Source: Phycicoccus sp. Soil802
GTDB taxonomy: Bacteria > Actinomycetota > Actinomycetes > Actinomycetales > Dermatophilaceae
Assembly (NCBI RefSeq): GCF_001429605.1
Contig: NZ_LMSS01000005.1
Location: 354,618 to 418,617, forward strand
DNA length: 64,000 nt
Direction of reading: 5' to 3'
Shown: piece by piece, positions 768 through 62,724 of the stretch
Numbering within the stretch: position 1 is the first letter of the stretch
How the letters are laid out: each line of letters starts with the position of its first letter
Translations under genes and position numbers: made by a program
The notes under the pieces: generated by a model
Databases searched by the model: none
What the model was told of the DNA's origin: nothing
Seen by the model: the letters and a program-made list of their open reading frames with translations, nothing else

Positions 768-1739
768 TCAGGCGCTGGGAGTGCGTCCGGCCAGGACGGT
801 GGTGAGCAGGTCGGCGTCGCAGTTGCCGCCGGTCATCACCACACCGACGCGCTGGCCGACCTGGCCGTCACGCTCGGCGAGCAGCCCGGCGAGCGCGATG
901 GCGCCCGCGGGCTCGGGCAGCTGGTGGGTGGTGCGCAGGAGCACCCGCATCGCCTCGGCCGTGTCGTCCTCCGCGACCGTGACCACGCGGGCGGCACCGC
1001 GCACGATCTCGGCCACCGCCTCAGGCACGGGCGCCCGACAGGCCACCCCGTCGACGAACGTGTCGGCGCTGGGCGTCGTGACCACGGTCCCCGCCTCGAA
1101 GGAGAGGGCGGTGGCCGGCGCGCGGTCGGACACCACGCCCACGATCTGCGTCGACAGCCCCAGCAGGTCACGGACGCCGATCAGCCCGCAGATCCCCGAG
1201 CCCATGCCGACCGGCACGTAGACCGTGTCGAGCGGCCCGGCCTCGTCGAACAGCTCGAGCGCATAGGTCCCGACGCCGACGACCAGGTCGGGGTGGAACG
1301 GCGGCACGGCCTCGAGCCCCAGCTCGGCCTCCAGGCCCATCGCGTGCTCGCGCGCCTCCTGGTAGTCGCGACCGTGCACGACCAGCTCCGCACCGAAGCC
1401 GCGCATCGCGGCGTTCTTGTCGGGGCTGTTGCCCTCCGGCACCACGATGACGACGCGCAGCCCGGCCGCCCGACCGGCATACGCCAAGGACTGCCCGTGG
1501 TTGCCGCGGGTGGCGGACACGAAGCCCTGCACGTCCGGTCGCTCACGGCTGGCCCGGTCGGCGTAGACCAGGCCACCTCGCACCTTGAAAGCCCCTGTGG
1601 GAGTGGCGTTCTCGTGCTTGACCCACACCTGTGCGCCGACCTGCTCGCTGAGCAGGGGCCACTCGAGCTGGGGCGTGGCAGGGAAGTGACGACGCACGAC
1701 GGCGGTCGCCGCGTCGAGGTCGGCGAGGGTGAACGACAT
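768..1739 (-). CDS. PLP-dependent threonine/serine dehydratase-like enzyme
   Basis: A 323-aa fold-type II PLP enzyme. The PLP lysine lies in PTGAFKVRGG (about residue 47), an asparagine/glycine-rich cofactor loop is at ATRGNHGQSLA, and the phosphate-binding glycine loop is at VPVGMGSGICG. Family members deaminate threonine, serine or hydroxyaspartate to a 2-oxo acid and ammonia. There is no C-terminal ACT regulatory domain, so it resembles the catabolic or hydroxyaspartate/serine dehydratase group; exact substrate unknown. An in-frame upstream ATG at 1844 exists, but family alignment and a CAGACT hexamer 7 nt before the ATG at 1739 favour the shorter form. Not obviously in an operon with the lipoprotein downstream. 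Confidence 0.85.
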   Translation of the reverse strand: MSFTLADLDAATAVVRRHFPATPQLEWPLLSEQVGAQVWVKHENATPTGAFKVRGGLVYADRASRERPDVQGFVSATRGNHGQSLAYAGRAAGLRVVIVVPEGNSPDKNAAMRGFGAELVVHGRDYQEAREHAMGLEAELGLEAVPPFHPDLVVGVGTYALELFDEAGPLDTVYVPVGMGSGICGLIGVRDLLGLSTQIVGVVSDRAPATALSFEAGTVVTTPSADTFVDGVACRAPVPEAVAEIVRGAARVVTVAEDDTAEAMRVLLRTTHQLPEPAGAIALAGLLAERDGQVGQRVGVVMTGGNCDADLLTTVLAGRTPSA

Positions 1740-1859
1740 GTCCGGCAGTCTGCCCGAGCCGCGACGACACCGCGTGAACCCGCCGGTGGCCGGGATCGCG
1801 GCACCCGTGGCGTCGCGGCAGATCTGCGCTTGGCCAGAAGGCACGGCAGGATGGGCGGT

Positions 1860-4174: not shown

Positions 4175-6238
4175 CTAGCTGGTCGCCAGCGCGGTGTCGT
4201 CGACGACGAACGACGTCTGCAGCGAGGAGTCCTCGTTCATGAGGAACTTCACCGTGATCGTCTTGCCCTTGTAGGCCGTGACGTTGAACGACTTCTGCGT
4301 GTACGTCGCGTTGGTGCCCACGTTGGAGTACGTGGCGAGCGTGGTCGTCGTCGCGCCGTCGACCACCTGCACCTTCATCGTGTCGTATGCCGTGCTGCCG
4401 GACTCAGCGGTGTCAGTGCGGAGCCAGAACGACAGGGTCGCGGCGGTGACGGTCGACGGGATCGCCACGCTCTGCTGCACGGTCTCGGTCGAGGTCGTGC
4501 CGTTGCCACCGAGCCAGGCCTTCCAGCTGCCGGTGCGAGCCGGACGGCCGGTGTTGTTGGTGATCGGACCCGCGGTGCCGGTCCAGCTGACCGCACCGGA
4601 CTCGAAGCCCGCGTTCAGCAGCAGGTTGCCAGCGGGCGGAGGCGTGGTGCCGCACGTGGCCGAGCCGGCGGGGACGGCGATGGCGGTGAAGGCCGCCTCG
4701 ACGGACTTGCAGGTCTGGCTGGTCGCCCCGTAGAGCTCGATGGCGGAGTTGATCGCCCCGTTGCGCGCTGCGGCGTAGTTGCTGTTGCTGGTCAGCTTGG
4801 TCGACAGCGTGCGGTACCAGACCTTCTCGATGTTGGCCCGACCCGCGCCCGTCACCGCAGGGGCGGTACCGCAGACGGGGCTGTTGTAGCTGACACCGTT
4901 GATGGTCTTGGCCCCACTGCCCTCGGAGGCGAGGTAGAACCAGTGGTTGAGCGGTCCCGACGAGTAGTGCGGGTTGAGCTGGCCGAGGGTCGAGGACCAG
5001 CAGTCCTTGGACGCGCCGTCCTTGCTGGGCTTGTCCATGTAGCGCAGCGGCGTCCCGTTGCCGTTGATGTCGATCTCCTCGCCGATGAGGTAGTCGCCGG
5101 GGTCGCTCGGGTTGTTGGCGTAGAACTCGACGGCGGTGCCGAAGATGTCCGACGTCGCCTCGTTGAGGCCGCCCGCGTCGCCGCTGTAGACCAGCCCTGC
5201 CGTGTTCTCGGTGACACCGTGCGACATCTCGTGGCCGGCGACGTCGATCTCGGTCAACGGCGCAGCGTTGCCCGCCCCGTCGCCGTACGACATCTGGGTG
5301 CCGTCCCAGAAGGCGTTCTCCATCGCGTTGGCGAAGTGCACCCGGGAGGGGGCGCCGCGGCCGTCGTTCCAGATCCCGTTGCGGCCCAGGACGTTCTTGT
5401 AGTAGTTGAACGTCGTGGTGGCGCCGTAGTGGGCGTCCACGGCGGCCGAGGCGCGGTCCGAGACTGCGCCGTTGCCCCAGACGTCGTCGGAGTCGACGAA
5501 GAGATTGCCGGCCGGGCCGACCCCGGTGTTGGGGTCGCCCTGGTTGAGGGCATCGCGGGTGTTGTTGCCGTGGGTGTCGGTGAGCTCGTAGCCACCGCCG
5601 GTGTGCGCCTTGGTCTCGAGGGAGGCGTTGTAGAAGATGCCGCCGCCGGTGCCGGTCTGCACCTCGTCGTAGCTGATCAGGGCAGCACCCGACTTGGCGT
5701 CCACGAGGGTGTGCAGCCGCGAGGGCACCTGGTCGGCCCGCACGCTCTTCACCAGCACGTCGTAGGCCAGGACGGGCTTCGCGCCACCGGCCCAGACGAC
5801 CAGCTCGCCGGTCGGGGACTGCGTGTGCTTGCCGGCGGACCTGCCCTCGGACAGCGCCCTGGCCTTCGTCACCGACGGAGTCGTCGAGGTGACGGCGACC
5901 TTGCCACTCGCGTTGTAAAGGACTTCCTTGGTCGCTCCCGCCTTGGACTTCTCGACGATGAGGTCGCCACCCACGACGCGCAGGCCCTTGAACGTGCGGT
6001 TGTAGCGGACGTGCTGCGTGCCGTCGGCGTCGGTGATGACGTTGCGCACCACCAGCTTCTCGTCCTTGGACAGGCCGAGAGCCGCGTGGTCCCGGTCGGC
6101 ATTCGCCTGTGCGGAGGCGACGCTGGTGGTGGCCTGGCTCGGCGCGGACTGGGGGGAGGCTGATGCAGCTGACAGTGGAGTGGCCACGGCCGCGGCGACT
6201 GCGACGCCAAGTGCGGCGCCGGTAGACAGTCGGATCAC
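4175..6238 (-). CDS. secreted M4 metalloprotease with C-terminal beta-sandwich extension
   Basis: A 687-aa protein. After a signal peptide it has an FTP/PepSY propeptide, an M4 catalytic domain with HEMSH (about 336-340) and the Glu in GGLNEATSD (about 360), and the M4 C-domain. A proline linker (TTPPPAG, about residue 530) leads to a roughly 150-residue domain starting NLLLNAGFESG and rich in beta strands, like carbohydrate-binding or jelly-roll modules of secreted enzymes. The GTG at 6238 follows AAGAGGA by 5 nt and is preferred over the ATG at 6259, which has no ribosome site. Strong similarity to the downstream paralogue (2410-3963) shows tandem duplication. A promoter candidate lies at 6345-6374. 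Confidence 0.93.
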   Translation of the reverse strand: MIRLSTGAALGVAVAAAVATPLSAASASPQSAPSQATTSVASAQANADRDHAALGLSKDEKLVVRNVITDADGTQHVRYNRTFKGLRVVGGDLIVEKSKAGATKEVLYNASGKVAVTSTTPSVTKARALSEGRSAGKHTQSPTGELVVWAGGAKPVLAYDVLVKSVRADQVPSRLHTLVDAKSGAALISYDEVQTGTGGGIFYNASLETKAHTGGGYELTDTHGNNTRDALNQGDPNTGVGPAGNLFVDSDDVWGNGAVSDRASAAVDAHYGATTTFNYYKNVLGRNGIWNDGRGAPSRVHFANAMENAFWDGTQMSYGDGAGNAAPLTEIDVAGHEMSHGVTENTAGLVYSGDAGGLNEATSDIFGTAVEFYANNPSDPGDYLIGEEIDINGNGTPLRYMDKPSKDGASKDCWSSTLGQLNPHYSSGPLNHWFYLASEGSGAKTINGVSYNSPVCGTAPAVTGAGRANIEKVWYRTLSTKLTSNSNYAAARNGAINSAIELYGATSQTCKSVEAAFTAIAVPAGSATCGTTPPPAGNLLLNAGFESGAVSWTGTAGPITNNTGRPARTGSWKAWLGGNGTTSTETVQQSVAIPSTVTAATLSFWLRTDTAESGSTAYDTMKVQVVDGATTTTLATYSNVGTNATYTQKSFNVTAYKGKTITVKFLMNEDSSLQTSFVVDDTALATS

Positions 6239-6623: not shown

Positions 6624-8531
6624 ATGTCGCGCCGCACCTCATCCCAGCCCTGGCCGGTCGCCGCCCTCGCGGTCGCCGCCCTGGCCCTGCCCCTCGTCGC
6701 CTCCGGGGCGTCCGCTGCGTCAGCGACCCCTGCCGCGTCGGCGACCGGCGCTCCGCTCGACAGCGTCGACACGTACTCCGGCTTGACCTTCACGGTGCCG
6801 GCAGGCAGGAACGACCTCGGCCAGCCGCAGACCTGCACCATCGACGCCGACCTCTACAAGCCCCACTCGGCGAGCCGCGCCGCGCGGGTGCCGGCCATCC
6901 TCACGACCAACGGCTTCGGCGGCAGCAAGGCCGACCAGGCGGGGTTGGGCGCAGCGTTTGCCAAGCGTGGCTACGCGGTGCTGTCCTACACCGGCCTCGG
7001 TTTTCCCAACAGCGGATGCAAGATCTCGCTCGACGACCCGGGCGTCGACGGAGTCGCCGCGAGCTCGTTGGTGAGCTTCCTCGGCGGCGCCGGCTCCGCG
7101 GCATACACCTCCTCGACCGTGGGCGGGACGACCGGCGGAGCGGGCAACGTAGCCGTCGACTTCACCGTCCTCGACAACGCTGCGACGCACGACCCGCGTC
7201 TCGGGATGATCGGCGGGTCCTACGGGGGCCAGATCCAGTTCGCCACTGCCGCAACGGATCCCCGAGTCGACACGCTGGTCCCCCTGATCACCTGGAACGA
7301 CCTGCGCTACTCATTGGCGCCCAACAACACCAGCTTCACGAGCGGCGTGACCTACGTCGGCTCCAACCCGGGCACCGAGAAGATCGGGTGGGCGGGCCTG
7401 TTCTTCGGGGTCGGCATCGTCGACGGGATCCAGGGAGCGGCCATCGACCCGGCCCGCAACGTCGGGTGCCCCAACTTCGTGTTGGAGGCCTGTCGTGCCA
7501 AGGCAACGCTCGACACGCTCGGCTACCCGACCGCGTCGACCACTGCGCTGACCGACCGCGTGTCCGTGGGCCACTACATCGACAAGGTGAAGGTGCCGAC
7601 CTTCCTCATCCAGGGCGAGAACGACACGTTGTTCAACCTCCAGGAGGCCACCGCCACCTACAAATCGCTGAAGGCGCGCGGCGTCCCCGTGACCATGGCC
7701 TGGCAGTCGTGGGGTCACTCCGGCGGGACCGGCGCCAACAGCGGTGCGGCTCCCGGCGAGCTCGACCTGACCGGTGAGCACATCGAAGACACCTACCTCG
7801 GCCTGCGGATCAAGAACTGGTTCGACCACTACCTCAAGCGGTCCTCGGTCTCGACCGGTCCTGCCTTCTCGTACTTCCGGGACTGGGTCCCCTACAGCGG
7901 CAGCGCTGCCCCGGCCTACGCCAGCTCAGGCAGCTACCCGGTCGGCACCCGCGCCAGCTGGTACCTGTCCGCAGCCGACCAGCTCGTCTCGTCGCGGTCC
8001 GCGATCCTGCCCGGGTCGAAGTCCTGGGCCAACCCGGGACTCGGGGCGCCCGCCTCCTACACCGAGGTCTCCGGGCTCGAGGGTCAGGTCGACCTCCCGG
8101 ACGGCCTGACCGTCCCGTTCGACACCCCGGGCACGTTCGGCGCCTGGTCGACACCCGCGCTGACCAAGCCGCTCACCGTCGTGGGGGCCCCGACCCTGGA
8201 CGTGCGGTTCGAGTCCCCGACCGTCGCGCTGACCCAGGCCGCCGGTCCCAGTGGGCAGCTCCAGGTCTTCGCCAAGCTGTACGACGTGGCTCCCGACGGC
8301 TCGGTCACGTTGGTGCACAAGCTGATCAGCCCGGTGCGCGTCGCCGACGTCACCCAACCGGTGCACATCGAGCTCCCGGCCATCGTGCACCGGGTCGAGG
8401 CCGGGCACCGCCTGCGGCTCGTCCTCGCCAGCACCGACGCGGCCTACAAGAACGCGTATGCCGTGCAGCCGGTCACGGTGCGCGCGTCACCCACCGCGCC
8501 GGCCACGCTCAGCATTCCGGTCGTGCCGTAG
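6624..8531 (+). CDS. secreted S15/CocE-type alpha/beta hydrolase (Xaa-Pro dipeptidyl-peptidase-like)
   Basis: A 635-aa protein with a Sec signal peptide (residues 1 to about 32, ending ASAASA). The catalytic alpha/beta-hydrolase domain carries the nucleophile in GGSYGG (about residue 197), an acid in GENDTLF and the histidine in WGHSGG. A C-terminal beta jelly-roll (about 480-635) is typical of the PepX/CocE family, which cleaves X-Pro dipeptides or ester/amide bonds. A GGAGG ribosome site lies 8 nt before the ATG. Its secretion and its position beside two extracellular metalloproteases suggest a joint role in breaking down external protein. Substrate not proven by sequence. Confidence 0.88.
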   Translation: MSRRTSSQPWPVAALAVAALALPLVASGASAASATPAASATGAPLDSVDTYSGLTFTVPAGRNDLGQPQTCTIDADLYKPHSASRAARVPAILTTNGFGGSKADQAGLGAAFAKRGYAVLSYTGLGFPNSGCKISLDDPGVDGVAASSLVSFLGGAGSAAYTSSTVGGTTGGAGNVAVDFTVLDNAATHDPRLGMIGGSYGGQIQFATAATDPRVDTLVPLITWNDLRYSLAPNNTSFTSGVTYVGSNPGTEKIGWAGLFFGVGIVDGIQGAAIDPARNVGCPNFVLEACRAKATLDTLGYPTASTTALTDRVSVGHYIDKVKVPTFLIQGENDTLFNLQEATATYKSLKARGVPVTMAWQSWGHSGGTGANSGAAPGELDLTGEHIEDTYLGLRIKNWFDHYLKRSSVSTGPAFSYFRDWVPYSGSAAPAYASSGSYPVGTRASWYLSAADQLVSSRSAILPGSKSWANPGLGAPASYTEVSGLEGQVDLPDGLTVPFDTPGTFGAWSTPALTKPLTVVGAPTLDVRFESPTVALTQAAGPSGQLQVFAKLYDVAPDGSVTLVHKLISPVRVADVTQPVHIELPAIVHRVEAGHRLRLVLASTDAAYKNAYAVQPVTVRASPTAPATLSIPVVP

Positions 8532-8645: not shown

Positions 8646-8647
8646 GC

Positions 8648-11675: not shown

Positions 11676-12659
11676 ATGTCGCAGAGCGTCCCGCGCCCTC
11701 GCCGACCTGCCGCACCGAAGCGGCGACCGTCGGGTGAGGAGGCACGCCCGGGCCCGCTCGCCCGGGCCACTCGTGGGGTGCGGACGGCGACCGGCCTGGC
11801 CGGCGACATCGTCGGTGGGGCCGCGAAGGCCCTGGCCACCCCGACCGGAGCGCTCGGGGCCGCCGTCGAGGCAGCCTGGGTGACCACGCACCTCGCGCTC
11901 TACCCGTGGGGCCTGATCGGGCGACACGGCCGCGACAGCCAGCTCGGCTTCCGGGTCGAGCACCTGCCGCCGATCCAGCGCGGGCTGGTGATCTCCGACG
12001 TCGAGGCGGCCGGCACCCCGATCCTGCTGGTGCACGGCATGGTCGACAACCGGTCGATCTTCACCCTGCTGCGCCTCGGCCTGCGCCGACGCGGCTTCGG
12101 TCGTGTCACGAGCATGAACTACTCGCCCTTCACGGCGGACGTCCGGGTCGCCGCCGCGCAGCTCGCCGAGGAGGTCGAGGCGCTCGTCGCCGAGACCGGG
12201 TACGAGCGGATCCACGTCGTGGGCCACTCCATGGGCGGGCTCATCGCGCGCTACTACGTGACCCGGCTCGGTGGTGACGAGCGGGTCCACACCCTCGTGA
12301 CGCTGGGCACACCCCACCAGGGCACGTACACGGCATACGGATGGCACAACCAGCTGACCCGACAGCTGCGACCCGGCAGCGGACTCATGCGTGAGCTCGA
12401 CCAGCCGGTGCCGGAGTGCCGCACCCGCTTCGTCGTCTACTGGTCCGACCTCGACCAGATGGTGTTCCCGCAGCGCAACGCCGCGCTCACCCACCCTGAC
12501 CTGCAGGTCCGCAACATCGACCTGCACGGCGTGGGTCACATGTCACTGCCGATCATCGGCAGCGTGGTGCACGGCATCTCCAGCACCCTGGCCCACCTCG
12601 ACTCCGAGGGTCACACCCTCACGCCCGGAGTGACCGAGCTGCGGCGACGGACCCCGTGA
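11676..12659 (+). CDS. lipase/esterase-like alpha/beta hydrolase
   Basis: A 327-aa alpha/beta-hydrolase. The oxyanion strand is ILLVHGMVDN, the nucleophile serine lies in GHSMGG, and the terminal histidine is in GVGHMSLP; YYVTRLGGDERVHTLVTLGT is typical of triacylglycerol-lipase and PGAP1-like hydrolases. The Arg/Pro-rich N-terminus (about 40 residues) is followed by a hydrophobic stretch near residue 65 (AVEAAWVTTHLALYPWG), perhaps membrane-associated; there is no clear signal peptide. The ATG at 11676 is chosen over 11619 because of the promoter just upstream. Likely substrate is a lipid ester, not defined. Confidence 0.82.
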   Translation: MSQSVPRPRRPAAPKRRPSGEEARPGPLARATRGVRTATGLAGDIVGGAAKALATPTGALGAAVEAAWVTTHLALYPWGLIGRHGRDSQLGFRVEHLPPIQRGLVISDVEAAGTPILLVHGMVDNRSIFTLLRLGLRRRGFGRVTSMNYSPFTADVRVAAAQLAEEVEALVAETGYERIHVVGHSMGGLIARYYVTRLGGDERVHTLVTLGTPHQGTYTAYGWHNQLTRQLRPGSGLMRELDQPVPECRTRFVVYWSDLDQMVFPQRNAALTHPDLQVRNIDLHGVGHMSLPIIGSVVHGISSTLAHLDSEGHTLTPGVTELRRRTP

Positions 12660-13617: not shown

Positions 13618-13646
13618 TCGGGTATGCCGCGTGGTGAGCCCTCGGG

Positions 13647-16106
13647 TCAGAGCTTCTCGAGCGGGGCGTAGCGGAGCAGGAACCGCTTGACCCCGGTGTC
13701 GCCGCCGAAGTCGACGTGGGCCTGCGTCTTGTCGCCCTCGCCCTCGGTCTTGACGACGGTGCCCATGCCGTAGCTGTCGTGGGTGACCTTGTCGCCCGGG
13801 TGGAGCGAGATGAGCGGGCGGTTGCCGGGTGACCGCACCCCGGGCCGGGCGGCCAGGGTCGCGACCGCGGGCAGTCCCGGTCGGCGGGTCGTGGTCGCCG
13901 CCTCGGCGCGCTGCCACTCGACCAGCTCGGGCGGGATCTCGTCGAGGAAGCGACTCGCCGGGTTGTACTGCGGGGCACCCCACGCCGAACGCACGGCGGC
14001 CCGCGACAGGTGGAGCCGCTCGCGAGCGCGGGTGATGCCGACGTAGGCGAGCCGGCGCTCCTCCTCGAGCTCCTTGGGGTCGCCGAGGGCGCGCAGGTGC
14101 GGGAAGGTGCCGTCCTCCAGGCCGGTGACGAAGACGACGGGGAACTCCAGGCCCTTGGCGGTGTGGAGGGTCATCAGCGTGACCACCCCGAGGTCCTCGG
14201 CCTCCTCGGAGTCGGGGATCTCGTCGGCGTCGGCCACCAGCGACACCTGCTCGAGGAAGTCCTCGAGCGAGGCCACCTCGCCGGTCGAGGCGCGGGTCTC
14301 GTCGAACTCCTGCGCCACGGCGACGAGCTCGGCGAGGTTCTCGATGCGGGTCTCGTCCTGCGGGTCGTGGCTGGCCCGCAGCTCGGCGAGGTAGCCGGAC
14401 CTGTCGATGACGGCCTCGAGCAGCGCACCGACTCCCTGCTCGTCGTCGGCGTGGATCTGGCCGAGCTGCTCGAGCAGGCCGGTGAAGCCCTTGATCGCCG
14501 CGACCGACCGGGTGGCGATGCCGGGGGCGTCCTCGGGACGACCGAGCGCCGCGATGAACGGGATCCGCTCCCGCTCGGCGAGCGCCGCCACACACGCCTC
14601 GGCCCGGTCGCCGATGCCGCGCTTGGGGGTGTTGAGGATGCGCCGCAGGTTGACGGTGTCGGTGGGGTTGGAGATGACGCGCAGGTAGGCCAGCGCGTCC
14701 TTGACCTCGCGACGCTCGTAGAACCGCGTGCCGCCGACCACCTTGTAGGGCAGGCCGACCCGCACGAAGACCTCTTCGAGCGCCCGTGACTGGGCGTTGG
14801 TGCGGTAGAAGACCGCGACATCCTTGGGCTTGACGCCGGCGGAGTCACCGAGCTCGTCGATGGTCTTGGCCACGAAGGCCGCCTCGTCGTGCTCGTTGTC
14901 GCCGACGTAGCCGATGATCGCCGCGCCGTTGCCGCTGTCGGTCCAGAGGTTCTTCTTGCGGCGCTCGGGGTTCTTGGCGATGACCGCGTTCGCGGCCTGC
15001 AGGATGGTCTGGGTGGAGCGGTAGTTCTGCTCGAGCAGGATGGTCCGCGCCGTCGGGTAGTCCTCCTCGAACTCCACGATGTTGCGGATCGTCGCGCCAC
15101 GGAACGCGTAGATCGACTGGTCGGCGTCGCCGACCACCACGAGCTCGGCCGGCTCGACCGCGGGTCCGTCGCCGACCGGCATACCGGGGCTGCCGGCTGC
15201 ACCACCCACGAGCTCGCGGACGAGCTGGTACTGGGCGTGGTTGGTGTCCTGGTACTCGTCGACGAGCACGTGGCGGAACCGGCGCCGGTAGTGCTCGGCG
15301 ACGTCGGGGAAGGCCTGGAGGATGTTGACCGTGGTCATGATGAGGTCGTCGAAGTCGAGGGCGTTGGCCTGCCGCAGGCGGCGCTGGTAGCCGGTGTAGG
15401 CCTCGGCCAGCATCCGCTCCTGGTGGGTGCCCTCCCCCACCCGCGAGGCGAAGGTCTCCTCGTCGACCAGCTCGTTCTTGAGGTTGGAGACCTGGTGGCT
15501 GAAGGACCGGGGCGGGTAGCGCTTGGGGTCGAGGTCGAGGTCGCGCATGACCATCGCCATGAGCCGTTGGCTGTCGGCGGCGTCATAGATCGAGAAGGTC
15601 GACTTGAGCCCGACCTTCGCGGCCTCGCGGCGCAGGATGCGCACGCACGCCGAGTGGAACGTCATGACCCACATGGCCTTGGCCCGCGGCCCGACCAGGG
15701 CGGCGACCCGCTCGCGCATCTCGGCGGCGGCCTTGTTGGTGAAGGTGATGGCCAGCACCTGGCCGGGCTGCACCCCGCGCGCGGCCAGCAGGTAGGCGAT
15801 CCGGTTGGTGAGGACGCGGGTCTTGCCCGACCCGGCCCCGGCGACGATGAGGAGGGGTCCGCCCTCGTGCAGGACCGCCTCGCGCTGCTGGGGGTTGAGC
15901 CCCTCGAGCAGGGTCTCGGGGTCGGCGCGGTGGGAGTCGCCGTCATCCGGACCGCGCCCCTCGGCGGCCGCCTGGGCCCAGGTGGGGACGCCTCGGTCGT
16001 CGACCGCGGTCGCGCGAGCCGCCGCAGCGCTCGGCCGTGTGCCGGAACTCGGGTCAGAAGGACGGTGCTTGTCGAAAGGCGCAAGGTCGTCGAAGAGCGT
16101 GCTCAT
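13647..16106 (-). CDS. pcrA: UvrD/PcrA-type ATP-dependent DNA helicase
   Basis: An 819-aa superfamily 1A helicase. Walker A is GAGSGKT, followed by motif Ia (ITFTNKAAAEMR), motif II (VDEYQDTN), motif III (VVGDADQSIYAFRGA), motif IV (LEQNYRSTQ) and motifs V/VI (TLHTAKGLEF, YVGITRARERL). The C-terminus (VDFGGDTGVKRFLLRYAPLE) matches the small Tudor-like domain of PcrA that contacts RNA polymerase. It unwinds 3'-5' in nucleotide excision repair and conflict resolution. The N-terminal 65 residues are low complexity. TAGGCT lies 9 nt before the ATG; the promoter region faces the GNAT gene. Confidence 0.96.
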   Translation of the reverse strand: MSTLFDDLAPFDKHRPSDPSSGTRPSAAAARATAVDDRGVPTWAQAAAEGRGPDDGDSHRADPETLLEGLNPQQREAVLHEGGPLLIVAGAGSGKTRVLTNRIAYLLAARGVQPGQVLAITFTNKAAAEMRERVAALVGPRAKAMWVMTFHSACVRILRREAAKVGLKSTFSIYDAADSQRLMAMVMRDLDLDPKRYPPRSFSHQVSNLKNELVDEETFASRVGEGTHQERMLAEAYTGYQRRLRQANALDFDDLIMTTVNILQAFPDVAEHYRRRFRHVLVDEYQDTNHAQYQLVRELVGGAAGSPGMPVGDGPAVEPAELVVVGDADQSIYAFRGATIRNIVEFEEDYPTARTILLEQNYRSTQTILQAANAVIAKNPERRKKNLWTDSGNGAAIIGYVGDNEHDEAAFVAKTIDELGDSAGVKPKDVAVFYRTNAQSRALEEVFVRVGLPYKVVGGTRFYERREVKDALAYLRVISNPTDTVNLRRILNTPKRGIGDRAEACVAALAERERIPFIAALGRPEDAPGIATRSVAAIKGFTGLLEQLGQIHADDEQGVGALLEAVIDRSGYLAELRASHDPQDETRIENLAELVAVAQEFDETRASTGEVASLEDFLEQVSLVADADEIPDSEEAEDLGVVTLMTLHTAKGLEFPVVFVTGLEDGTFPHLRALGDPKELEEERRLAYVGITRARERLHLSRAAVRSAWGAPQYNPASRFLDEIPPELVEWQRAEAATTTRRPGLPAVATLAARPGVRSPGNRPLISLHPGDKVTHDSYGMGTVVKTEGEGDKTQAHVDFGGDTGVKRFLLRYAPLEKL

Positions 16107-20263: not shown

Positions 20264-20340
20264 GGCGCAACGGTCGCGGACCCGGGGGTGCGACGGCAAG
20301 CGGCCCCGCGGCATACCGGGCAATCGGTGCTCGGTCGTGG

Positions 20341-28122: not shown

Positions 28123-28140
28123 CCCCGCGGCATACCCCAC

Positions 28141-36295: not shown

Positions 36296-36347
36296 ACCCT
36301 AGTGCGTGGTGGGACGCGCGCCTTCACCCGACCACGCGGCATACGAT
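36296..36347. promoter_or_regulatory. divergent leaderless promoter pair for murT-gatD and AGE isomerase
   Basis: On the minus strand TAGGGT (36296-36301) lies 7 nt before the murT GTG; on the plus strand TACGAT (36342-36347) lies 6 nt before the ATG at 36354. Only 65 bp separate the two start codons. The plus -10 element is part of a GGCATAC word. Confidence 0.6.
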
Positions 36348-40895: not shown

Positions 40896-40945
40896 CCACC
40901 CGAGCAAACTCACGGGGCGCGAGGAGCCAGCCACGCGGCATACCG

Positions 40946-53612: not shown

Positions 53613-54348
53613 GCTGGGCATCCTCTCGCACCATCCTGAACCACATGAACGCGGCAAAGCCGCCGAAGATCCACCACTGCAGTGCGTATGCCGCGTTGCG
53701 CCACTTCAGCCCGCCCGTCACCTCGGGCGGCGGCACCCTCGTCACCCCGTCCGGTGCGGGGATCCCGACCCCCGCACCGGTCTTCTCCCCCTGCGCGAAG
53801 ACGAACGCGTTGTACAGCTCTCCCGGCCACTCGTTGACCAGCAGCGAGAAGTCGATCGAGCCACGAGCCTGCTGCGGCCAGGCGGGCAGACCGGCCGGCG
53901 GGTCGGCCGGCGCCTCTCCCGGCGCGAGCGTGCCGTCCACCGACACCACCCCGGGGGGCGGGTCGATGGGAGTCGTGGTGTCGGTGACGAAGCCGCGGAC
54001 GACGGCGAGCCGCGCGCCCGTCTCCGTCACGTCCAGCGGCGTGACGACCCAGTAGCCGGTGGCCCCGCCGAGGCGGCGCGGCCCGACGAGGAACTGGTCC
54101 GACGCGGCATACGTGCCGATGGCGGTGACGGCCCGGTTGGACTGCGGGTTCGGGAACGCCTGGTGCGGTCGGATGACCGTGTCGAGCAGCGCGGGACGCG
54201 CCTCGTGCGCCTGGCGCAGCGCATCGGCGAGGCCCTTGTCCTGCGCGACGTGCAGCTGCCACAGCCCGAGCTGCGCGCAGGCCGCCATGATCGCGAGCAG
54301 CAGGGCGAACAGGCCCAGCCAGCGAGGCTTCAGGGCGGTTCGCAGCAC
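53605..54348 (-). CDS. SURF1-family protein (cytochrome oxidase assembly)
   Basis: A 247-aa protein with two transmembrane helices (about residues 10-32 and 218-238) around an extracytoplasmic domain. LGLWQLHVAQDKG and NAAYALQWWIFGGFAAFMWF are typical of SURF1, which helps assemble the haem a3 centre of cytochrome c oxidase. GTG start with TAGCCT 6 nt upstream (54355-54360), overlapping the upstream stop codon: a promoter within the end of the preceding gene. A following DUF3817 gene overlaps it. Confidence 0.9.
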   Translation of the reverse strand: MLRTALKPRWLGLFALLLAIMAACAQLGLWQLHVAQDKGLADALRQAHEARPALLDTVIRPHQAFPNPQSNRAVTAIGTYAASDQFLVGPRRLGGATGYWVVTPLDVTETGARLAVVRGFVTDTTTPIDPPPGVVSVDGTLAPGEAPADPPAGLPAWPQQARGSIDFSLLVNEWPGELYNAFVFAQGEKTGAGVGIPAPDGVTRVPPPEVTGGLKWRNAAYALQWWIFGGFAAFMWFRMVREDAQRD

Positions 54349-55606: not shown

Positions 55607-55728
55607 CCCCACTCACCCCTTCCGCTCGTCACGGTATGCCGCGTGCTCGCGGCCACTCGGAAGGCTCACCGGGCGGGCGGAAAATCGGTGTCGGGGTGTC
55701 GTCGCCGCGGCATACGGTGGGGATCCTG

Positions 55729-57480
55729 ATGCAGACGATCCCGTTCCCCGACCCCGGCCGACCCGACACCCGTAGCACCACCCGGTTCATGCTCTGGGTC
55801 GGTCGGCAGCAGTGGCGCACCCAGGTGCTCGGGATGCTCGCGGGGATGGCATGGATGCTGGCGATCGCGCTCGTGCCGGCCGCCGTGGGCAAGGGCGTCG
55901 ACGACGGCATCGTCCCCGGCGACCTGGGTGGCCTGGTCCGCTGGGCCCTGGTGCTGATCGGGCTGGGTGCGATCTGCGCGGTCACGGCTGCCATCCGGCA
56001 CTACTTCGCCGTCTACAACTGGCTGTTCGCCTCCTACCGCGGCGCACAGCTCACCGCCCAGGGAGCCGAGCGCGCCGGGCCGGCACTGACGCGCACCATG
56101 CCGTCGGGCGAGGTCGTCGCCGTCTTCGCCAACGACGTGATGCGGCTCGGCGGCCTGTACGACGTGATGGGCCGGTTCTCCGGCGCCGTCGTGAGCTACG
56201 CGGTCGTCGGCGCCATCCTGCTCGCCGCGTCGCCGGCCCTCGGGTGGCTCGTGCTGCTCGGTGGCCCGGTCATGCTGGCCAGCCTGAGCCTCATCGTGCG
56301 GCCGCTCCAGCGCCGCCAGGCGAGGCAGCGCGAGGAGGCCGGGCGCCTGACCACGCTCGGGGCCGACACGGTCGCGGGGCTGCGCGTGCTGCGCGGCATC
56401 GGCGGGGAGCAGACCTTCCTGCGCCGCTACGAGCAGCAGTCGGCCAGGGTCCGCGAACGCGGGTTTCAGGTGGCCGGCATCCAGGCGGCGCTGGACTCCG
56501 CCGAGGTGCTCATCCCCGGCATCTTCGTGGTCCTGGTGACCTGGCTCGGCGCGCGCGAGGCGGTGACCGGTGACATCACCGCCGGTCAGCTGGTGGCCTT
56601 CTACGGCTACACGGCGTTCCTCACCATGCCGCTGCAGACCGCGATCGAGGTCGTCGACCGGGGCATCCGGGCGCAGATCGCGGCGGGCAAGATGCTCCGC
56701 GTCATGGCAGTCCAGCCCGACCACGACGCCGCCAGGCCGAGCACCGTCCCCGTGCCGCCCGCCGACGCCGACCTGGTCGACCCGTTGTCCGGCACGGTGA
56801 TCCGCGGCGGCCTCCTGACGGCCATCGTGTCGGCGCGGCCCGAGGAGTCGTCCGCCGTGGCCGACCGACTGGGTCGACACGGACCCGGCCCGCACCAGAC
56901 CACTTGGGGTGGAGTGCGACTCGACGACCTGTCGATCGCCGACGTCCGCCGGCACGTCGTGGTCAGCGAGCCCGACCCGCGACTGTTCACCGGGGTGCTG
57001 CGCGAGCAGCTCAGCGGCCACGCCAACGGGCGCCCATCGGCCGACGGCACCGGAGGTGGCCACGCCGACCGCGAGGTGCTGGCCGCGCTGACCACCGCGA
57101 GCGCCCTCGACGTCCTCGACGCCGTCGCCGACGGCCTCGACGGCACGGTCGAGGAGCGCGGACGGTCCTACTCGGGCGGTCAGCGCCAGCGCCTCGCCCT
57201 GTCGCGGGCGCTGCTCACCGAAGCCCCCGTGCTCGTCCTGGTCGAGCCGACCAGCGCGGTGGACGCCCACACCGAGGCCCGCATCGCCGGCCGGCTCGCC
57301 GAGCACCGCCGCGGCCGCACGACCGTGGTCACGACAGTCAGCCCGCTGCTGCTCGGCCAGGCCGACGAGGTCGTGGTGCTCGAGGACGGGCTGGTCACGC
57401 TCACGGGCACGCACCGCGAGCTGCTGGACCACCCGGCATACCGACACATCGTGATCCGCGGAGAGGAGGACGACCAGTGA
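55729..57480 (+). CDS. ABC exporter half-transporter with degenerate ATP-binding site
   Basis: A 583-aa protein: six transmembrane helices (about residues 25-310), then a nucleotide-binding domain. The Walker A position reads IVSARPEESSAVADRLG instead of GxxGxGKS/T, the Walker B Asp is Val (VLVLVEPTSAVD), and the H-loop His is Ser (TTVSPLLLG). The signature motif is intact (YSGGQRQRLALSRAL, about residue 481). It must work with the downstream half-transporter, whose Walker motifs are intact. The ATG at 55729 follows GGGGATCCTG. Substrate unknown. Confidence 0.92.
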   Translation: MQTIPFPDPGRPDTRSTTRFMLWVGRQQWRTQVLGMLAGMAWMLAIALVPAAVGKGVDDGIVPGDLGGLVRWALVLIGLGAICAVTAAIRHYFAVYNWLFASYRGAQLTAQGAERAGPALTRTMPSGEVVAVFANDVMRLGGLYDVMGRFSGAVVSYAVVGAILLAASPALGWLVLLGGPVMLASLSLIVRPLQRRQARQREEAGRLTTLGADTVAGLRVLRGIGGEQTFLRRYEQQSARVRERGFQVAGIQAALDSAEVLIPGIFVVLVTWLGAREAVTGDITAGQLVAFYGYTAFLTMPLQTAIEVVDRGIRAQIAAGKMLRVMAVQPDHDAARPSTVPVPPADADLVDPLSGTVIRGGLLTAIVSARPEESSAVADRLGRHGPGPHQTTWGGVRLDDLSIADVRRHVVVSEPDPRLFTGVLREQLSGHANGRPSADGTGGGHADREVLAALTTASALDVLDAVADGLDGTVEERGRSYSGGQRQRLALSRALLTEAPVLVLVEPTSAVDAHTEARIAGRLAEHRRGRTTVVTTVSPLLLGQADEVVVLEDGLVTLTGTHRELLDHPAYRHIVIRGEEDDQ

Positions 57481-59282
57481 TCACCGACCACGCCCGTCGC
57501 ACCCTGCCGATCGCCGACATGGCTGGGGTCTGGCAGCACACCCGCGGGCTCGTGCGCGAGCACCGCGGCCTCGTGGCGCGGGTGCTGGGGCTGCACGCGC
57601 TGGCGGCGCTCGCGGCGCTGGCCGCCCCGTGGCTGGTCGGCCGGCTCGTCGACGTCGTCAGCGGCCACCGCGGAGACACCGGCACCGTCGACAAGATCGC
57701 GATCGGCCTGGCCGTGGCCGTCGTCGCGCAGACGGCGCTGACCTGGGCTGCGCGACGGTGGTCGTTCATCCTCGGGGAGACCGTGTTCGCCGAGCTGCGG
57801 GAGCAGTTCGTCGGCCGCGCGGTCAACCTGCCGCTGTCGACGGTCGAGCGAGCCGGCACGGGTGACCTCGTGGCCCGCACCACCAACGACGTCGAGGCCC
57901 TGTCGCACGTGGTGCGGTTCGGCATCCCGTCGCTGTTCGTCGCGTCGATGACGGTGCTGATGACGACCGTGGCGGCGCTGTTCACCTCGCCGCTGGCCAC
58001 CCTGCCGATCCTGCTCGGAGTGCCGTTCTACTGGTTCTCGACGAGGCGCTACCTGCGGCACGCGTCCGACGGCTACCTCTGGGAACGCGCGACCTACGCC
58101 CAGCTCAACGGCGTCGTCGCCGAGACCGTCGACGGGGCGCGCACGATCGACGCCCTCTCGCTCGGCGACGCGCGGCGGACCCGGTTCCACGACGCCCTGC
58201 GCGAGTGCTTCCAAGCCGAGCGCTACACCCTCAACCTGCGGCTGCACTGGTTCCCGGCGGTGGTCTTCGGCTACTACGTGCCGACGGCCGGCGCGGTGCT
58301 CTGGGGCGGCTGGCTGGCGATCAACGGCCACATCAGCGCCGGGGCGGCCACCGCCGTCACCCTCTACATCCACCAGATGACCAACCCGCTCGACGAGGTG
58401 CTCGGCTGGCTCGACGAGATCCAGGTCGGCGCGACCTCCCTGGCGCGCGTCATCGGGGTGGGCGACGTGCCGCCCGACCGTGTCGCGACCGGGGAGGAGC
58501 CGGACGGTTCCGACCTGGCGGTCGACGACGTGCGCTACGCCTACCGCCCCGGGCACGACGTCCTGCGCGGCGTCTCGCTCGACCTGCGACCCGGCGAACG
58601 GCTCGCCATCGTCGGCCCGTCCGGCGCGGGCAAGTCCACGCTCGGCCGCCTGATGGCCGGCATCGACGGCCCTCGCGAGGGCAGCGTCGAGGTCGGAGGC
58701 GTGCCGCTGGTCGACCTCACCCTCAGCCGGCTGCGCGGAGAGGTGGCCCTGGTGACCCAGGAGCACCACGTCTTCGTCGGCACGCTGGCCGACAACCTGC
58801 TGCTCGCCCGACCGGGTGCGTCGCGCGACGAGCTCGACGACGCCCTGCGGGCGGTCGACGCCCACGAGTGGGTCGCCGGGCTGCCCGACGGCCTCGACAC
58901 CCAGGTGGGCAGTGGTGGCCACACCCTCAGCGAGGCGCAGTCGCAGCAGGTCGCGCTCGCCCGGTTGGTGCTCGCCGACCCACACACGCTCGTCCTCGAC
59001 GAGGCCACCTCGCTGCTCGACCCCCGCGCCGCGCGGCACCTCGAGCGCTCGCTCGCCGCCGTGGTCGAGGGGCGCACCGTGGTCGCGATCGCCCACCGGC
59101 TGCACACCGCGCACGACGCCGACCGGGTGGCAGTGGTCGAGGACGGCGTGGTGACCGAGATCGGCACGCACGACGAGCTGGTCGCCGCCGACGGCCCGTA
59201 TGCCGCGTTGTGGGCCTCCTGGCGCGACCAGCCCGGTGCGGCGTCGGGGGCCACCGGGAGAAATGTTTCAGGGGCGCCGTAA
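57477..59282 (+). CDS. ABC exporter half-transporter with intact Walker motifs but degenerate signature
   Basis: A 601-aa partner of the previous gene, starting at a GTG inside its stop codon (GTGA). Six transmembrane helices, then an NBD with Walker A GPSGAGKST (about residue 378), Walker B LVLDEATSLLD (about 504) and H-loop AIAHR (about 536). The signature motif is LSEAQSQQ instead of LSGGQ. The heterodimer therefore has one good ATP site (this protein's Walker A/B plus the partner's SGGQ) and one site degenerate on both faces. Such heterodimers export drugs, lipids or peptides. Confidence 0.93.
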   Translation: MITDHARRTLPIADMAGVWQHTRGLVREHRGLVARVLGLHALAALAALAAPWLVGRLVDVVSGHRGDTGTVDKIAIGLAVAVVAQTALTWAARRWSFILGETVFAELREQFVGRAVNLPLSTVERAGTGDLVARTTNDVEALSHVVRFGIPSLFVASMTVLMTTVAALFTSPLATLPILLGVPFYWFSTRRYLRHASDGYLWERATYAQLNGVVAETVDGARTIDALSLGDARRTRFHDALRECFQAERYTLNLRLHWFPAVVFGYYVPTAGAVLWGGWLAINGHISAGAATAVTLYIHQMTNPLDEVLGWLDEIQVGATSLARVIGVGDVPPDRVATGEEPDGSDLAVDDVRYAYRPGHDVLRGVSLDLRPGERLAIVGPSGAGKSTLGRLMAGIDGPREGSVEVGGVPLVDLTLSRLRGEVALVTQEHHVFVGTLADNLLLARPGASRDELDDALRAVDAHEWVAGLPDGLDTQVGSGGHTLSEAQSQQVALARLVLADPHTLVLDEATSLLDPRAARHLERSLAAVVEGRTVVAIAHRLHTAHDADRVAVVEDGVVTEIGTHDELVAADGPYAALWASWRDQPGAASGATGRNVSGAP

Positions 59283-59416: not shown

Positions 59417-61135
59417 TCAGACCCTGGCGCTCTCGTGGGTGTACCGCGTGACGGCCGGGTGGCCGGCCTTGACCGCCTCGAGCCGGCGGTAGGCCGCACC
59501 CTGAGCCGGACGAGGGTCGGCCTCCCCCTTGTTCGGCCACAGCGACATGGCTCGCTCGGCCTGGGCCGTGATGGTCAGCGAGGGGTTGACGCCGAGGTTC
59601 GCCGAGACGGCCGAACCGTCGACGACGTGCAGGTCGGGGTAGCCCCAGACCCGTTGGTAGGGGTCGAGCACCCCGCGCTCGGGACTCGAGCCGATCGTCA
59701 CGCCACCGAGGAAGTGGGCGGTCAAGGGGATGTTGGCGATCTCGCTGACGCTGCTGCCCGCGAACGCCCTCAGCCCGGTCGCCGCGCTGAGCCGCACCGC
59801 CAGTGCCTTCATCGCCTCCTGGCCGGCCGGGATGTAGGTCGGGTTGGGCTCACCGTGGCCCTGCCGCGAGGTCAGGCCTCGCCCGCCGAAGAGCCCGCTC
59901 GTGCCGTTCACGTGCAGGGAGTTGTCGCGCGACTGCATGATCAGGCCGATGACGGTCCGCTCGCTCCAGCGGTACTGCGAGAGCGACCGGAGGAAGACCA
60001 CGGGGTGCCGCACCACCTCGACGACGAACTGGGCCGGCCGCGGCAGCTCGCCACCCGGCACCAGGATCGTCGCGAGCAGGCCCATCGCGTTGGAGCCCCT
60101 GCCGTACCGCACGTTCTCGACGTGGGTGTCGGCGTCGGGGTGGAACGACGACGTGATGGCGACCCCGTGAGAGAGGTCCAGACCCGGCTTGACCTTCTCC
60201 AGCATCACGCCGTTGACGGCTTCGGAGTTGGTCCGGGTGAGGTGGCCGAGCCGGGCCGACAGCCCTGGCAGCACGCCCGTCTGCCGCATCGAGTGCAGCA
60301 GCTTCTGGGTGCCCCACGTCCCCGCCGCGAACACCACCTGGTCCGCGGTGACGGTATGCCGCGCCCGCCGGAACCACGCGCCGCTCGCCTCGTGCGTCAC
60401 GGCATACCCACCACTGCGCCGGGGGGCCACGCGGACGACGGTGCGCATCGGCTCGATGGTGACCCCGAGCTTCTCCGCGAGGGCCAGGTAGTTCTTGACC
60501 AGGGTGTTCTTCGCGCCGACCCGGCAGCCCACCATGCAGTTGCCGCACTCGGTGCAGCCGGTGCGGTCCGGGCCGGCGCCACCGAAGTAGGGGTCGGGGA
60601 CGCGCTTGCCGGGCATGCCGTAGAAGACACCGGTCGGGGCCTTCCGGAACGTGTCGCCGACCCCGAGGTCCTCGGCGGTCTGGCGCATGACGTCCTCGAC
60701 GACGCCCTCGCAGGGGTTGGTGACGACGCCGAGCATGGTCGAGGCGGTGTCGTAGTGGGGCGCCAGCTCCGCCTGCCAGTCGGTGATGTCACCCCACTGG
60801 CGGTCGGCGAAGAACGCCGCGGGCGGGACGTAGAGGGTGTTGGCGTAGTTGAGCGAGCCGCCACCGACGCCCGCCCCGGCCAGGATCATCACGTCGGGCA
60901 GGCGGTGCACCCGTTGCACGCCAAAGCATTTCAGCTTGGGCGCCCACAGGTAGCTGCGCAGGTCCCACGAGGTCTTCGCGAAGTCCTCGTCGCGGAACCG
61001 GCGGCCGGACTCGACGACGTGCACGCGGTAGCCCTTCTCGGCCAACCGCAGCGCCGTGACCGAGCCGCCGAACCCCGACCCGACGACCAGGACGTCGTAG
61101 TCGCTGCCCGAGCCGCCCGGAGGCGCACCCGTCAC
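59417..61135 (-). CDS. GMC-family FAD oxidoreductase (cholesterol-oxidase-like) with Cys cluster
   Basis: A 572-aa flavoprotein. The FAD Rossmann motif is VVGSGFGGSVTALRLAE (about residue 16), followed by GAGVGGGSLNYAN. A cysteine cluster GCTECGNCMVGCRVGAKNTL (about residues 197-216) resembles an iron-sulfur motif seen in ChoD-like proteins. The C-terminal HxxxD/N-type signature lies in DLHVVDGSAVSANLGVNPSL. The arrangement near guaB3 matches ChoD of mycobacteria; true activity on sterols is uncertain. The GTG start overlaps the aldehyde dehydrogenase stop (GTGA). Confidence 0.88.
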   Translation of the reverse strand: MTGAPPGGSGSDYDVLVVGSGFGGSVTALRLAEKGYRVHVVESGRRFRDEDFAKTSWDLRSYLWAPKLKCFGVQRVHRLPDVMILAGAGVGGGSLNYANTLYVPPAAFFADRQWGDITDWQAELAPHYDTASTMLGVVTNPCEGVVEDVMRQTAEDLGVGDTFRKAPTGVFYGMPGKRVPDPYFGGAGPDRTGCTECGNCMVGCRVGAKNTLVKNYLALAEKLGVTIEPMRTVVRVAPRRSGGYAVTHEASGAWFRRARHTVTADQVVFAAGTWGTQKLLHSMRQTGVLPGLSARLGHLTRTNSEAVNGVMLEKVKPGLDLSHGVAITSSFHPDADTHVENVRYGRGSNAMGLLATILVPGGELPRPAQFVVEVVRHPVVFLRSLSQYRWSERTVIGLIMQSRDNSLHVNGTSGLFGGRGLTSRQGHGEPNPTYIPAGQEAMKALAVRLSAATGLRAFAGSSVSEIANIPLTAHFLGGVTIGSSPERGVLDPYQRVWGYPDLHVVDGSAVSANLGVNPSLTITAQAERAMSLWPNKGEADPRPAQGAAYRRLEAVKAGHPAVTRYTHESARV

Positions 61136-62724
61136 GCGCGCCCCACGGACTTGAGCACCCGCAGTGCGGCGGTCATCAGGCGCGCATAGGTCTCCTCGCT
61201 CATCCCGGCGACCGGAGCGATGGGCAGGAGGTACTGCGCGGTGACGTTCTGCGACTCGGTGTACTTGAGGATGCCCTCGCTGCCGTGCCGCCGCCCCACG
61301 CCGGACTGCTTCATGCCACCCATCGGGGCCGCGACGCTCCCCCACGCCGCGGCATACCCCTCGTTGACGTTGACGGTGCCGGCCTTGATGGCGTTCGCGA
61401 TCCGGCGGCCACGGGCCACGTCGCGGGTGTAGACCGCGGCGTTGAGGCCGTAGTCGGTGTCGTTGGCGAAGCGGATCGCCTCCTCGTCGCTGTGCACGCG
61501 GTAGATCGCGACGACCGGGCCGAAGGTCTCGTCGTCACGCAGTGCCATCGCGGCGGTCACGCCCTCGAGGACGGTGGGCTCGTAGAAGTACGGGCCGACG
61601 TCGGGGCGGGCGCGCCCACCGGTGAGCACCCGCGCGCCCTTGGAGCGGGCGTCGTCGACGTGGGCTGCGACGCGCTCCAGCTGGTGGGCGGAGACCAGCG
61701 AACCCATGTCGGTGCCGTAGGCCAGCTCCGCGCCGAGGCTCAGCTGATCGACGGCGGCCACGAACCGCCGGGTGAACTCGTCGGCCACGGCTCCGTGCAC
61801 GAGCAGCCGCTCGATCGAGATGCACAGCTGGCCGGCCGACGAGAAGCAGGCCCGCACCGCACCCTCGACCGCCTTGTCGAGGTCCGCGTCGTCGGCGACG
61901 TACATCGAGTTCTTGCCGCCGAGCTCGAGTGAGTAGCCGACCAGGCGTCCGGCGACCGAGGTGGCGACGCGTCGCCCGGTGTCGGTCGAGCCGGTGTAAC
62001 AGACGTAGTCGGTCAGGTCGACGACCGCCTGCCCCACCGACGGCCCGTCACCCAGGACGACCTGCAGCACCGACTCGGGGAGCCCGGCCTCGGTGAGCAG
62101 CTGCACGGCCTGCAGGGCGGTCAGCGACGCTTGCAGGTCCGGGCGCAGCACGACGGCGTTGCCGGCCATCAGGGCCGGGATCGCGTCGGTGATCGCGAGC
62201 GAGAGGGGGTAGTTCCAGGGGCTGACGATGCCGACGACCCCTCGGGCGTGGTGGTGCACCGTGCTCTGCGTCAGCACCGGGAACAGCCCCGCGCGACGGC
62301 GCGGACGCAGGTATGCCGCGGCGGAGCGGGCGTAGTGCCGCGCCACGATCGCGACGTCGGCGACCTCCTCGAACGCCTGGCGGCGGGTCTTGCCCGACTC
62401 CAGCTGCACGATGTCGAGCAGCTCGACCTGCCGCTCGAGCACGAGGTCGTGGTAGCGCAGGAAGATCCGCTCACGCAGCTCCATCGGCGTGCGCGCCCAC
62501 TCGCGCTGGGCCGCGCGGGCGGCGTCGACCGCGACGGCGACGTCCTCACGGGTCGACAGCGGCAGCGACCCGAGCGGTGCTCCGGTGAGCGGGGTGTGGC
62601 TGACGTGGTGCCCGGCCCGGGGCGCCGCCACCACCCGTCGGGCCAGCCGTCGGACCAGGGCCGGGTCCACGGCATACGTGGCGGTGGGGTCGGTCTCGGG
62701 GTCGGCGACGACATCGTGGGCCAT
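61132..62724 (-). CDS. NAD(P)-dependent aldehyde dehydrogenase (succinate-semialdehyde type)
   Basis: A 530-aa aldehyde dehydrogenase. The catalytic Cys is in FSSAGQLCISIERL, the general-base Glu in LELGGKNSMYV, and the cofactor loop in YTGSTDTGRRVA. Overall it resembles the GabD2-type succinate-semialdehyde dehydrogenases of actinobacteria. TAGGCT lies 7 nt before the ATG (leaderless type). It is coupled to the GMC oxidoreductase, so an oxidase/dehydrogenase pair converting an alcohol to an acid is possible. Confidence 0.92.
   Translation of the reverse strand: MAHDVVADPETDPTATYAVDPALVRRLARRVVAAPRAGHHVSHTPLTGAPLGSLPLSTREDVAVAVDAARAAQREWARTPMELRERIFLRYHDLVLERQVELLDIVQLESGKTRRQAFEEVADVAIVARHYARSAAAYLRPRRRAGLFPVLTQSTVHHHARGVVGIVSPWNYPLSLAITDAIPALMAGNAVVLRPDLQASLTALQAVQLLTEAGLPESVLQVVLGDGPSVGQAVVDLTDYVCYTGSTDTGRRVATSVAGRLVGYSLELGGKNSMYVADDADLDKAVEGAVRACFSSAGQLCISIERLLVHGAVADEFTRRFVAAVDQLSLGAELAYGTDMGSLVSAHQLERVAAHVDDARSKGARVLTGGRARPDVGPYFYEPTVLEGVTAAMALRDDETFGPVVAIYRVHSDEEAIRFANDTDYGLNAAVYTRDVARGRRIANAIKAGTVNVNEGYAAAWGSVAAPMGGMKQSGVGRRHGSEGILKYTESQNVTAQYLLPIAPVAGMSEETYARLMTAALRVLKSVGRA

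Follow-up and report, generated by a model that had tools for sequence, protein, structure and literature searches.

An over-represented octamer of Phycicoccus and other Dermatophilaceae that resembles a DNA uptake signal

What accounts for the presence of one eight-letter word at dozens of positions in a single stretch of an actinobacterial chromosome? The question is raised by 64,000 nucleotides of the genome of Phycicoccus sp. Soil802 (contig NZ_LMSS01000005.1, positions 354,618 to 418,617; this whole stretch is called the window below), in which the octamer GTATGCCG occurs 41 times, 21 times on the plus strand and 20 times on the minus strand, exactly as a preliminary description of this DNA had counted by eye. 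One hundred dinucleotide shuffles of the window yield a mean of 0.81 copies and never more than 3, a third-order Markov model predicts 1.9, and GTATGCCG is the top octamer of the window by z-score. By the sequence tests made here the word looks like an uptake signal of the kind found in Neisseria and Haemophilus, and we consider it probable that GTATGCCG is an uptake-signal-like self-recognition motif of the family Dermatophilaceae that evolved independently and has a Flp-pilus competence machine as its reader; biased uptake, the competence of the organism and the identity of the reader protein are what we infer beyond the motif itself.

The excess is not restricted to the window, since the source genome (4.29 Mb) contains 2241 copies of GTATGCCG (1143 + 1098) and only 51 copies (25 + 26) of the control, the same word read backwards. 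In a 464-kb sample of this genome (G000), composed of the window and 20 other stretches, 224 copies stand against 10.3 expected, and GTATGCCG again ranks first among octamers. The preliminary description had allowed for two disappointing outcomes, Markov-like counts genome-wide or an excess limited to the window; neither was found. The word is non-palindromic, as it differs from its own reverse complement, and it is distributed evenly over both strands: 118 and 106 copies in the 464 kb, with no marked bias in 20-kb stretches, and 83,524 and 83,722 copies over 79 word-rich genomes of the family, in agreement with the non-polar character proposed earlier. Chi and KOPS (FtsK-orienting polar sequences) are orientation-biased motifs. 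A polar role of the Chi or KOPS type does not fit the strand balance of GTATGCCG, judged here stretch by stretch.

The GTATGCCG excess is specific to the Dermatophilaceae, a family taken here in the GTDB sense (the NCBI family of this name is narrower). All 11 genomes of the genus that were examined are word-rich, with 625 to 3986 copies each, and across 149 genomes from 53 genera of the family the density is bimodal: 79 genomes have at least 200 copies per Mb, 57 have fewer than 50, and 13 lie between these limits. Thirty genera are rich, 20 are poor and three are intermediate; g26 and g35, both counted as rich, each include a poor species. Outside the family, none of 273 genomes in an order-level sample (297 genomes, 24 of them in the family) has more than 177 copies, and the highest count in a phylum-level sample (296 genomes, three in the family; five of the other 293 shared with the order sample) is 386 in 7.5 Mb, with 176 copies of the reversed word. 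No genome outside the family in these two samples reaches 100 copies per Mb; the 1.8-Mb genome G692 has 161 copies against 30 of the reversed word, or about 89 per Mb. Stretches of 12-22 kb from named relatives were also counted. Those with many copies come from Knoellia remsis (11 copies), Intrasporangium oryzae (10), Phycicoccus elongatus (22), Humibacillus (13), Terrabacter (12) and a Tetrasphaera metagenome-assembled genome (MAG; 18), and from Ornithinimicrobium in three of four stretches (7, 8 and 16 copies; 3 in the fourth); no copy occurs in the stretches from Dermacoccus abyssi, Intrasporangium flavum, Janibacter indicus and one uncultured Phycicoccus.

Within the window, exact plus-strand copies lie at 4385-4392, 8456-8463, 13622-13629, 17137-17144, 19251-19258, 22092-22099, 22942-22949, 26659-26666, 26698-26705, 26797-26804, 28648-28655, 30751-30758, 34939-34946, 37394-37401, 41986-41993, 48379-48386, 53686-53693, 55634-55641, 59198-59205, 60354-60361 and 62311-62318, and exact minus-strand copies at 1475-1482, 7099-7106, 12331-12338, 15177-15184, 18018-18025, 20309-20316, 22610-22617, 25097-25104, 28128-28135, 28389-28396, 30573-30580, 36337-36344, 40936-40943, 44204-44211, 54105-54112, 55708-55715, 57434-57441, 60400-60407, 61350-61357 and 62670-62677. 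The copies at 13622, 28128, 36337, 40936, 55634 and 55708 are intergenic according to a rough gene caller; those at 55634 and 55708 form an inverted pair, and a second, intragenic inverted pair is formed by 60354 and 60400. The 13 example positions given in the preliminary description are correct within 7 bases, and four of the five sites that it called intergenic are placed between genes by the gene caller as well; the fifth, 20309, falls inside a called gene.

The anatomy of the sites shows where the pressure acts. All six frame and strand settings are used by the word, as originally described, with xxG-TAT-GCC-G as the commonest coding frame (93 of 169 coding sites). The 224 sites of the 464-kb sample comprise 169 coding, 53 intergenic and 2 partial ones; by the rough gene caller 88.6% of this sequence is coding and 11.4% non-coding, so that 53 intergenic sites amount to an approximately twofold intergenic enrichment. 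The flanks have preferences of their own, with G before the octamer, C or T at position 9, and G at positions 10 and 13, resulting in an extended consensus of about gGTATGCCGYGnnG that is weaker than the core. Six contexts have at least 14 sites, and in five of them (the main sense frame, two frames in antisense, and intergenic sites, whether single or paired) 66-88% of sites carry G at position 10. Sites in the main sense frame have G at position 10 in 68% and at position 13 in 62% of cases, compared to 37% and 41% in 4507 comparable codon contexts outside the word. Because sites are in excess between genes and the flank preferences recur in most reading frames and in intergenic sites, the pressure is on the DNA and not on codons, and the earlier suggestion to this effect is upheld. 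Pairing adds a further element: among 18 neighbouring pairs no more than 100 nt apart, 12 are in plus-minus order, three in minus-plus order, two plus-plus and one minus-minus. Eight intergenic plus-minus pairs in the 464 kb, with their members 21-33 nt apart, form strong hairpins 13-32 nt 3' of a stop codon.

The window was compared with the syntenic stretches of seven congeners (G001 to G007), with 8 to 23 of the 41 sites unaligned and excluded. In the word-rich relatives, GTATGCCG sites are conserved well above their flanks: intact sites amount to 27 of 33 in G004 (flanking 8-mers identical in 41%), 25 of 33 in G003 (35%), 20 of 27 in G002 (35%), 14 of 18 in G005 (19%), 13 of 26 in G006 (25%) and 7 of 18 in G001 (24%). 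The TAT codon provides an internal comparison, as 16 of the 27 TAT codons in window genes are located inside the word; these are mostly kept (12 of 12 in G002, 13 of 15 in G004), whereas other TAT codons have mostly become TAC in relatives, with only four to seven such codons per relative. The seven congeners together have 63 aligned alleles that are not intact; a single letter separates 35 of these from the word, and gaps occur in six. These alleles bear on the possibility that the sites are remnants of a dispersed mobile repeat of the repetitive extragenic palindromic (REP) or miniature inverted-repeat transposable element (MITE) type that carries the word, to which the near-identical intergenic hairpins at locus L048 would lend themselves. 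The preponderance of one-letter over gapped alleles, the lack of indels between empty and filled alignments at most aligned sites, and the fact that most sites are single, intragenic and without any longer common sequence make such an origin very improbable.

Decay products of the word are scarce. The five words that are one C-to-T or G-to-A step away from GTATGCCG total 9 occurrences against 8.3 expected, beside 224 intact copies, and therefore do not constitute a pool of copies decayed in this way. A mutational origin had been suggested in two forms, deamination of a methylated GTACGCC and a Vsr-like biased mismatch repair, and an apparent shortage of GTACGCC had been noted. This shortage turns out not to be specific; GTACGCCG occurs 3 times in the window against 3.6 by shuffling, and words containing GTAC are generally low there (CGTAC 44 against 116, GGTAC 43 against 119). 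Deamination is unsupported because the precursor GTACGCCG is undepleted in the 464 kb (30 against 28.7) and because precursor and product together far exceed their expected sum (254 against about 33). In favour of repair, the source genome does have two Vsr genes, each adjoining a C5 methylase (G000, C2:269822-272370 and C3:323058-324637); among 59 family genomes searched, however, no more than 18 have Vsr, and since it is missing from the word-rich genomes G013, G014, G017, G021, G032, G056 and G061, Vsr is unsupported as well. By the Vsr distribution and the precursor counts, a mutational origin is practically ruled out.

The word is also thinly spread in non-syntenic DNA and in one island. 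Syntenic parts of the window (39.25 kb) contain 32 sites and non-syntenic parts (24.75 kb) contain 9, a density under half. The low-GC segment C1:1-60000 of the source genome (60 kb; L045-L047) is a defence island that encodes BREX BrxL, an Eco57I-type methylase, GmrSD, an AbiV-like protein and a Mu-type transposase; it has 7 sites, whereas the density in the other stretches would predict 31 (nominal P = 2e-7, a value that does not come from a blind test because the segment was chosen after its first 20 kb showed no site). Its GC content is 65%, compared to about 71% elsewhere, and its own composition would predict about one site. The lower density in non-syntenic segments weighs on the alternative of a non-polar architectural or recombination motif, bound by a nucleoid protein or by a recombination enzyme with a need for many sites, which came closest among the candidates of the preliminary description; DNA uptake signals, the best anatomical fit, had not been considered there. 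Conservation at the DNA level, the spread along the sampled chromosome and the lack of marked local strand bias are all compatible with an architectural function. The word is dispensable and labile, however, with 20 of 53 genera poor and rich and poor species mixed in g26 and g35; it is depleted in non-syntenic DNA, and it does not share the orientation bias of Chi and KOPS. We regard an architectural role as improbable.

One-letter dialects replace GTATGCCG in some related genera. In samples of 40-80 kb from each of 25 other genomes, a near variant of the word is the top or second octamer in six (G036, G030, G089, G033, G078 and G049): GGATGCCG in G036 (47 against 3.5 expected), GTATGCGG in G030 (25 against 1.4), GTACGCCG in G089 (55 against 9.5) and G033 (28 against 3.7), GTACGGCG in G078 and GTACGACG in G049. 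In 22 kb of a Phycicoccus MAG, 14 copies of GAATGCCG accompany 8 of GTATGCCG. Two of these variants resemble GTATGCCG in anatomy, with intergenic enrichment of GGATGCCG (22 of 75 sites in sequence with 14.1% non-coding) and of GTATGCGG (6 of 30, 10.0% non-coding) and one intergenic plus-minus hairpin each in the samples. Set against 58 actinobacterial loci (1.13 Mb) whose titles were taken to place them outside the family, GGATGCCG is about 7-fold and GTATGCGG about 15-fold in excess; GTACGCCG and GTACGGCG are uncertain as dialects because their excess is only 2-3-fold and most short minus-plus pairs of GTACGGCG represent one overlapping palindrome. No near variant is prominent in 14 sampled poor genera (best z 5.2). 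In a TadA-B-C tree of 20 genomes, the dialect genome G036 stands beside the GTATGCCG-rich G048. An in-place dialect switch between these sisters is not borne out site by site, as nine aligned G036 sites correspond in G048 to one GTATGCCG, two GGATGCCG common to both, and six other words.

Several other enriched words came to light in the same samples. The octamer CGAAGGGG, different from GTATGCCG, is enriched in g37 and g38 (41 against 3.6 in 40 kb and 33 against 7.7 in 80 kb; L114-L115 of G082 and L076-L079 of G131), with intergenic shares of 12 of 41 and 3 of 33, and 6 copies lie in a 12-kb stretch of Janibacter indicus (L175); CGAAGGGG may be an unrelated word of the same kind, used by relatives such as Janibacter. 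The palindrome GGCATGCC in G030 (L072-L075) is intergenic in 14 of 16 cases counting both strands, that is, in seven of eight places, and ATGACGGTG occurs 11 times in 40 kb of G067, genus g10 (L090-L091), against 0.5 expected. CGATAAAG, with 9 occurrences in the 464-kb sample of the source genome, all of them intergenic by the rough gene caller, is perhaps a regulatory site.

Lineage dialects lead to the main rival of the uptake reading, a modification motif in the manner of the cyanobacterial word HIP1 (highly iterated palindrome 1). According to PMC4390886, HIP1, GCGATCGC, is a very frequent octamer iterated genome-wide, and certain cyanobacteria have alternate words in its place, together with methylases that match them. 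By analogy with what has been proposed for HIP1, GTATGCCG would be the site of a modification enzyme, with methylation-dependent repair or conversion making and keeping the copies, and its dialects would follow methylase specificity; the dialects and the few decay products fit such a conversion process too. HIPs, however, are palindromic and tied to cognate methylases, whereas GTATGCCG is not a palindrome and lacks a common methylase in the two families tested: C5 methylases (PF00145) occur in 6 of the 11 genus genomes and are missing from the word-rich G002, G003, G006, G008 and G009, and N6/N4 methylases (PF01555) occur in 3 of 11, the source genome not among them. The search for a methylase common to the 11 word-rich genus genomes was negative for PF00145 and PF01555, the type I, Eco57I-type and BREX methylases being outside it. 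Scarcity of the word in the island and plus-minus hairpins behind genes would also be left unexplained, and we consider a HIP1-like origin unlikely.

How the uptake-signal reading could work is suggested by the competence and pilus genes of the family. In the proposed mechanism, the duplex word would be bound by a competence protein on the cell surface, with a Flp/Tad minor pilin (TadE/F/G-like) or a ComEA partner as the likeliest candidates, and this binding would favour the uptake of DNA of the same lineage via the Tad pilus and ComEC. Fragments bearing the word would be taken up and recombined more often, words born by point mutation would spread, mutated copies would be overwritten, and intergenic inverted pairs would double as hairpins behind genes. 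Biased uptake combined with recombination would thereby account for a copy number in the thousands, for how few decayed copies are seen, for the thin spread in foreign DNA and for dialects that differ between lineages. Candidate components are at hand. ComEC was found in 145 of 149 family genomes, the four misses being assemblies of 330-760 contigs, and comEA adjoins comEC in the source genome; T2SSE-family ATPases were found in 59 of 59 genomes, 58 of them above cut-off. The two tad loci of the source genome encode TadA, TadB/C-like proteins, a short Flp-like protein and TadE/TadG-like pilins. As correlates of the word, ComEC and T2SSE were discarded; they are near-universal and so uninformative.

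A number of observations count against the uptake-signal reading and have to be weighed here. Some concern the machinery. Word-poor genomes have com and tad genes as well; these genes do not track the word, and for this reason the machinery is compatible with uptake but not diagnostic of it. Tad pilins are present, none of them tied to the word: at tad locus C in 21 genomes, no gene occurs in at least five word-rich or dialect loci and in at most one word-poor locus, and no gene confined to word-rich genomes was seen at tad loci B and C, in one comparison limited to the genes of the source genome and one that took in all genes. PilM, the marker of type IVa (T4a) pili, is found in only 5 of 149 genomes, and T4a pili were accordingly rejected as the uptake machine. 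Two of three dialect genomes read at tad locus C have no Flp/TadE gene after tadABC. In these two, G036 and G030 (L257, L258), tadABC is not followed by a Flp/TadE match, unlike in most relatives, and a short TadG-like match remains in G036; the loss may be a local rearrangement. Other observations concern the word itself. The sixth flank context, a sense frame with 14 sites, lacks the extension, with G at position 10 in 21% and mostly G at position 9. In G007, the congener with the fewest copies, 5 of 19 sites (26%) are intact compared to 24% of flanks, which is no excess, and just 4 of 8 in-word TAT codons are kept. All 24 one-mismatch words together show a slight excess (294 against 267 expected; GGATGCCG contributes most, 67 against 41.7), and some turnover is therefore visible. 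The spacing of sites departs from random only slightly, towards regularity (coefficient of variation 0.86; variance/mean of 10-kb counts 0.90, with sites within 60 nt merged). GTACGCCG, the uncertain dialect of G089, is without intergenic enrichment (3 of 55). None of the eight hairpins behind genes has an obvious T-run, and transcription termination by them is for that reason only surmised.

On balance we lean towards the view that species-specific DNA uptake arose a third time, independently, in the Dermatophilaceae, and for the first time in Gram-positive bacteria, the genomes being marked with GTATGCCG or one of its dialects and the mark being read by a Flp (Tad) pilus competence machine. 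According to passages of PMC12616744, selection of DNA by short enriched words is known from no families other than the Neisseriaceae and Pasteurellaceae. Literature on uptake sequences in Actinobacteria or Gram-positive bacteria, on uptake sequences together with names of the family and its genera, and on over-represented octamers contained no description of the motif among the matches listed, and among the listed papers that contain the word itself none has a title on this subject. If confirmed, this would be the first such genome-tagging system known in Gram-positive bacteria; self-tagging would then evolve repeatedly and need neither T4a pili nor an outer membrane, and the 30 word-rich genera, with their graded gain, loss and dialect change, would become a test bed for the origin of such systems. 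By extension, these bacteria would recombine with kin more than has been recognised, and the word could serve as a handle for transforming them.

Among known systems, the candidate machine has its nearest likeness in the Flp/Tad-dependent transformation of Micrococcus luteus, for which both tad clusters are required (PMC4322843, in part); the term "uptake sequence" is absent from the main text of that paper and its passages mention no such motif, and the likeness resides in the comEA/comEC genes and two tad clusters that are present here too. The uptake signal sequence (USS) of the Pasteurellaceae, as portrayed in passages of PMC12616744, differs in its AT-rich flanks, compared to YGnnG here, and in its machinery; like GTATGCCG, it combines a core word with weaker flanks, many copies and types that vary by lineage. 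From the DNA uptake sequence (DUS) of the Neisseriaceae, with its receptor ComP, the Dermatophilaceae motif differs in word and phylum, in a T4a marker limited to few genomes, and in the lack of an identified ComP counterpart among the Dermatophilaceae genes examined. What GTATGCCG and the DUS have in common, according to passages of PMC3630211, PMC7371117 and PMC12616744, is a short, non-palindromic word in very many copies, coding as well as intergenic, with inverted-pair hairpins behind genes, lineage dialects and scarcity in genomic islands, the last three being features that DUS and USS have in common.

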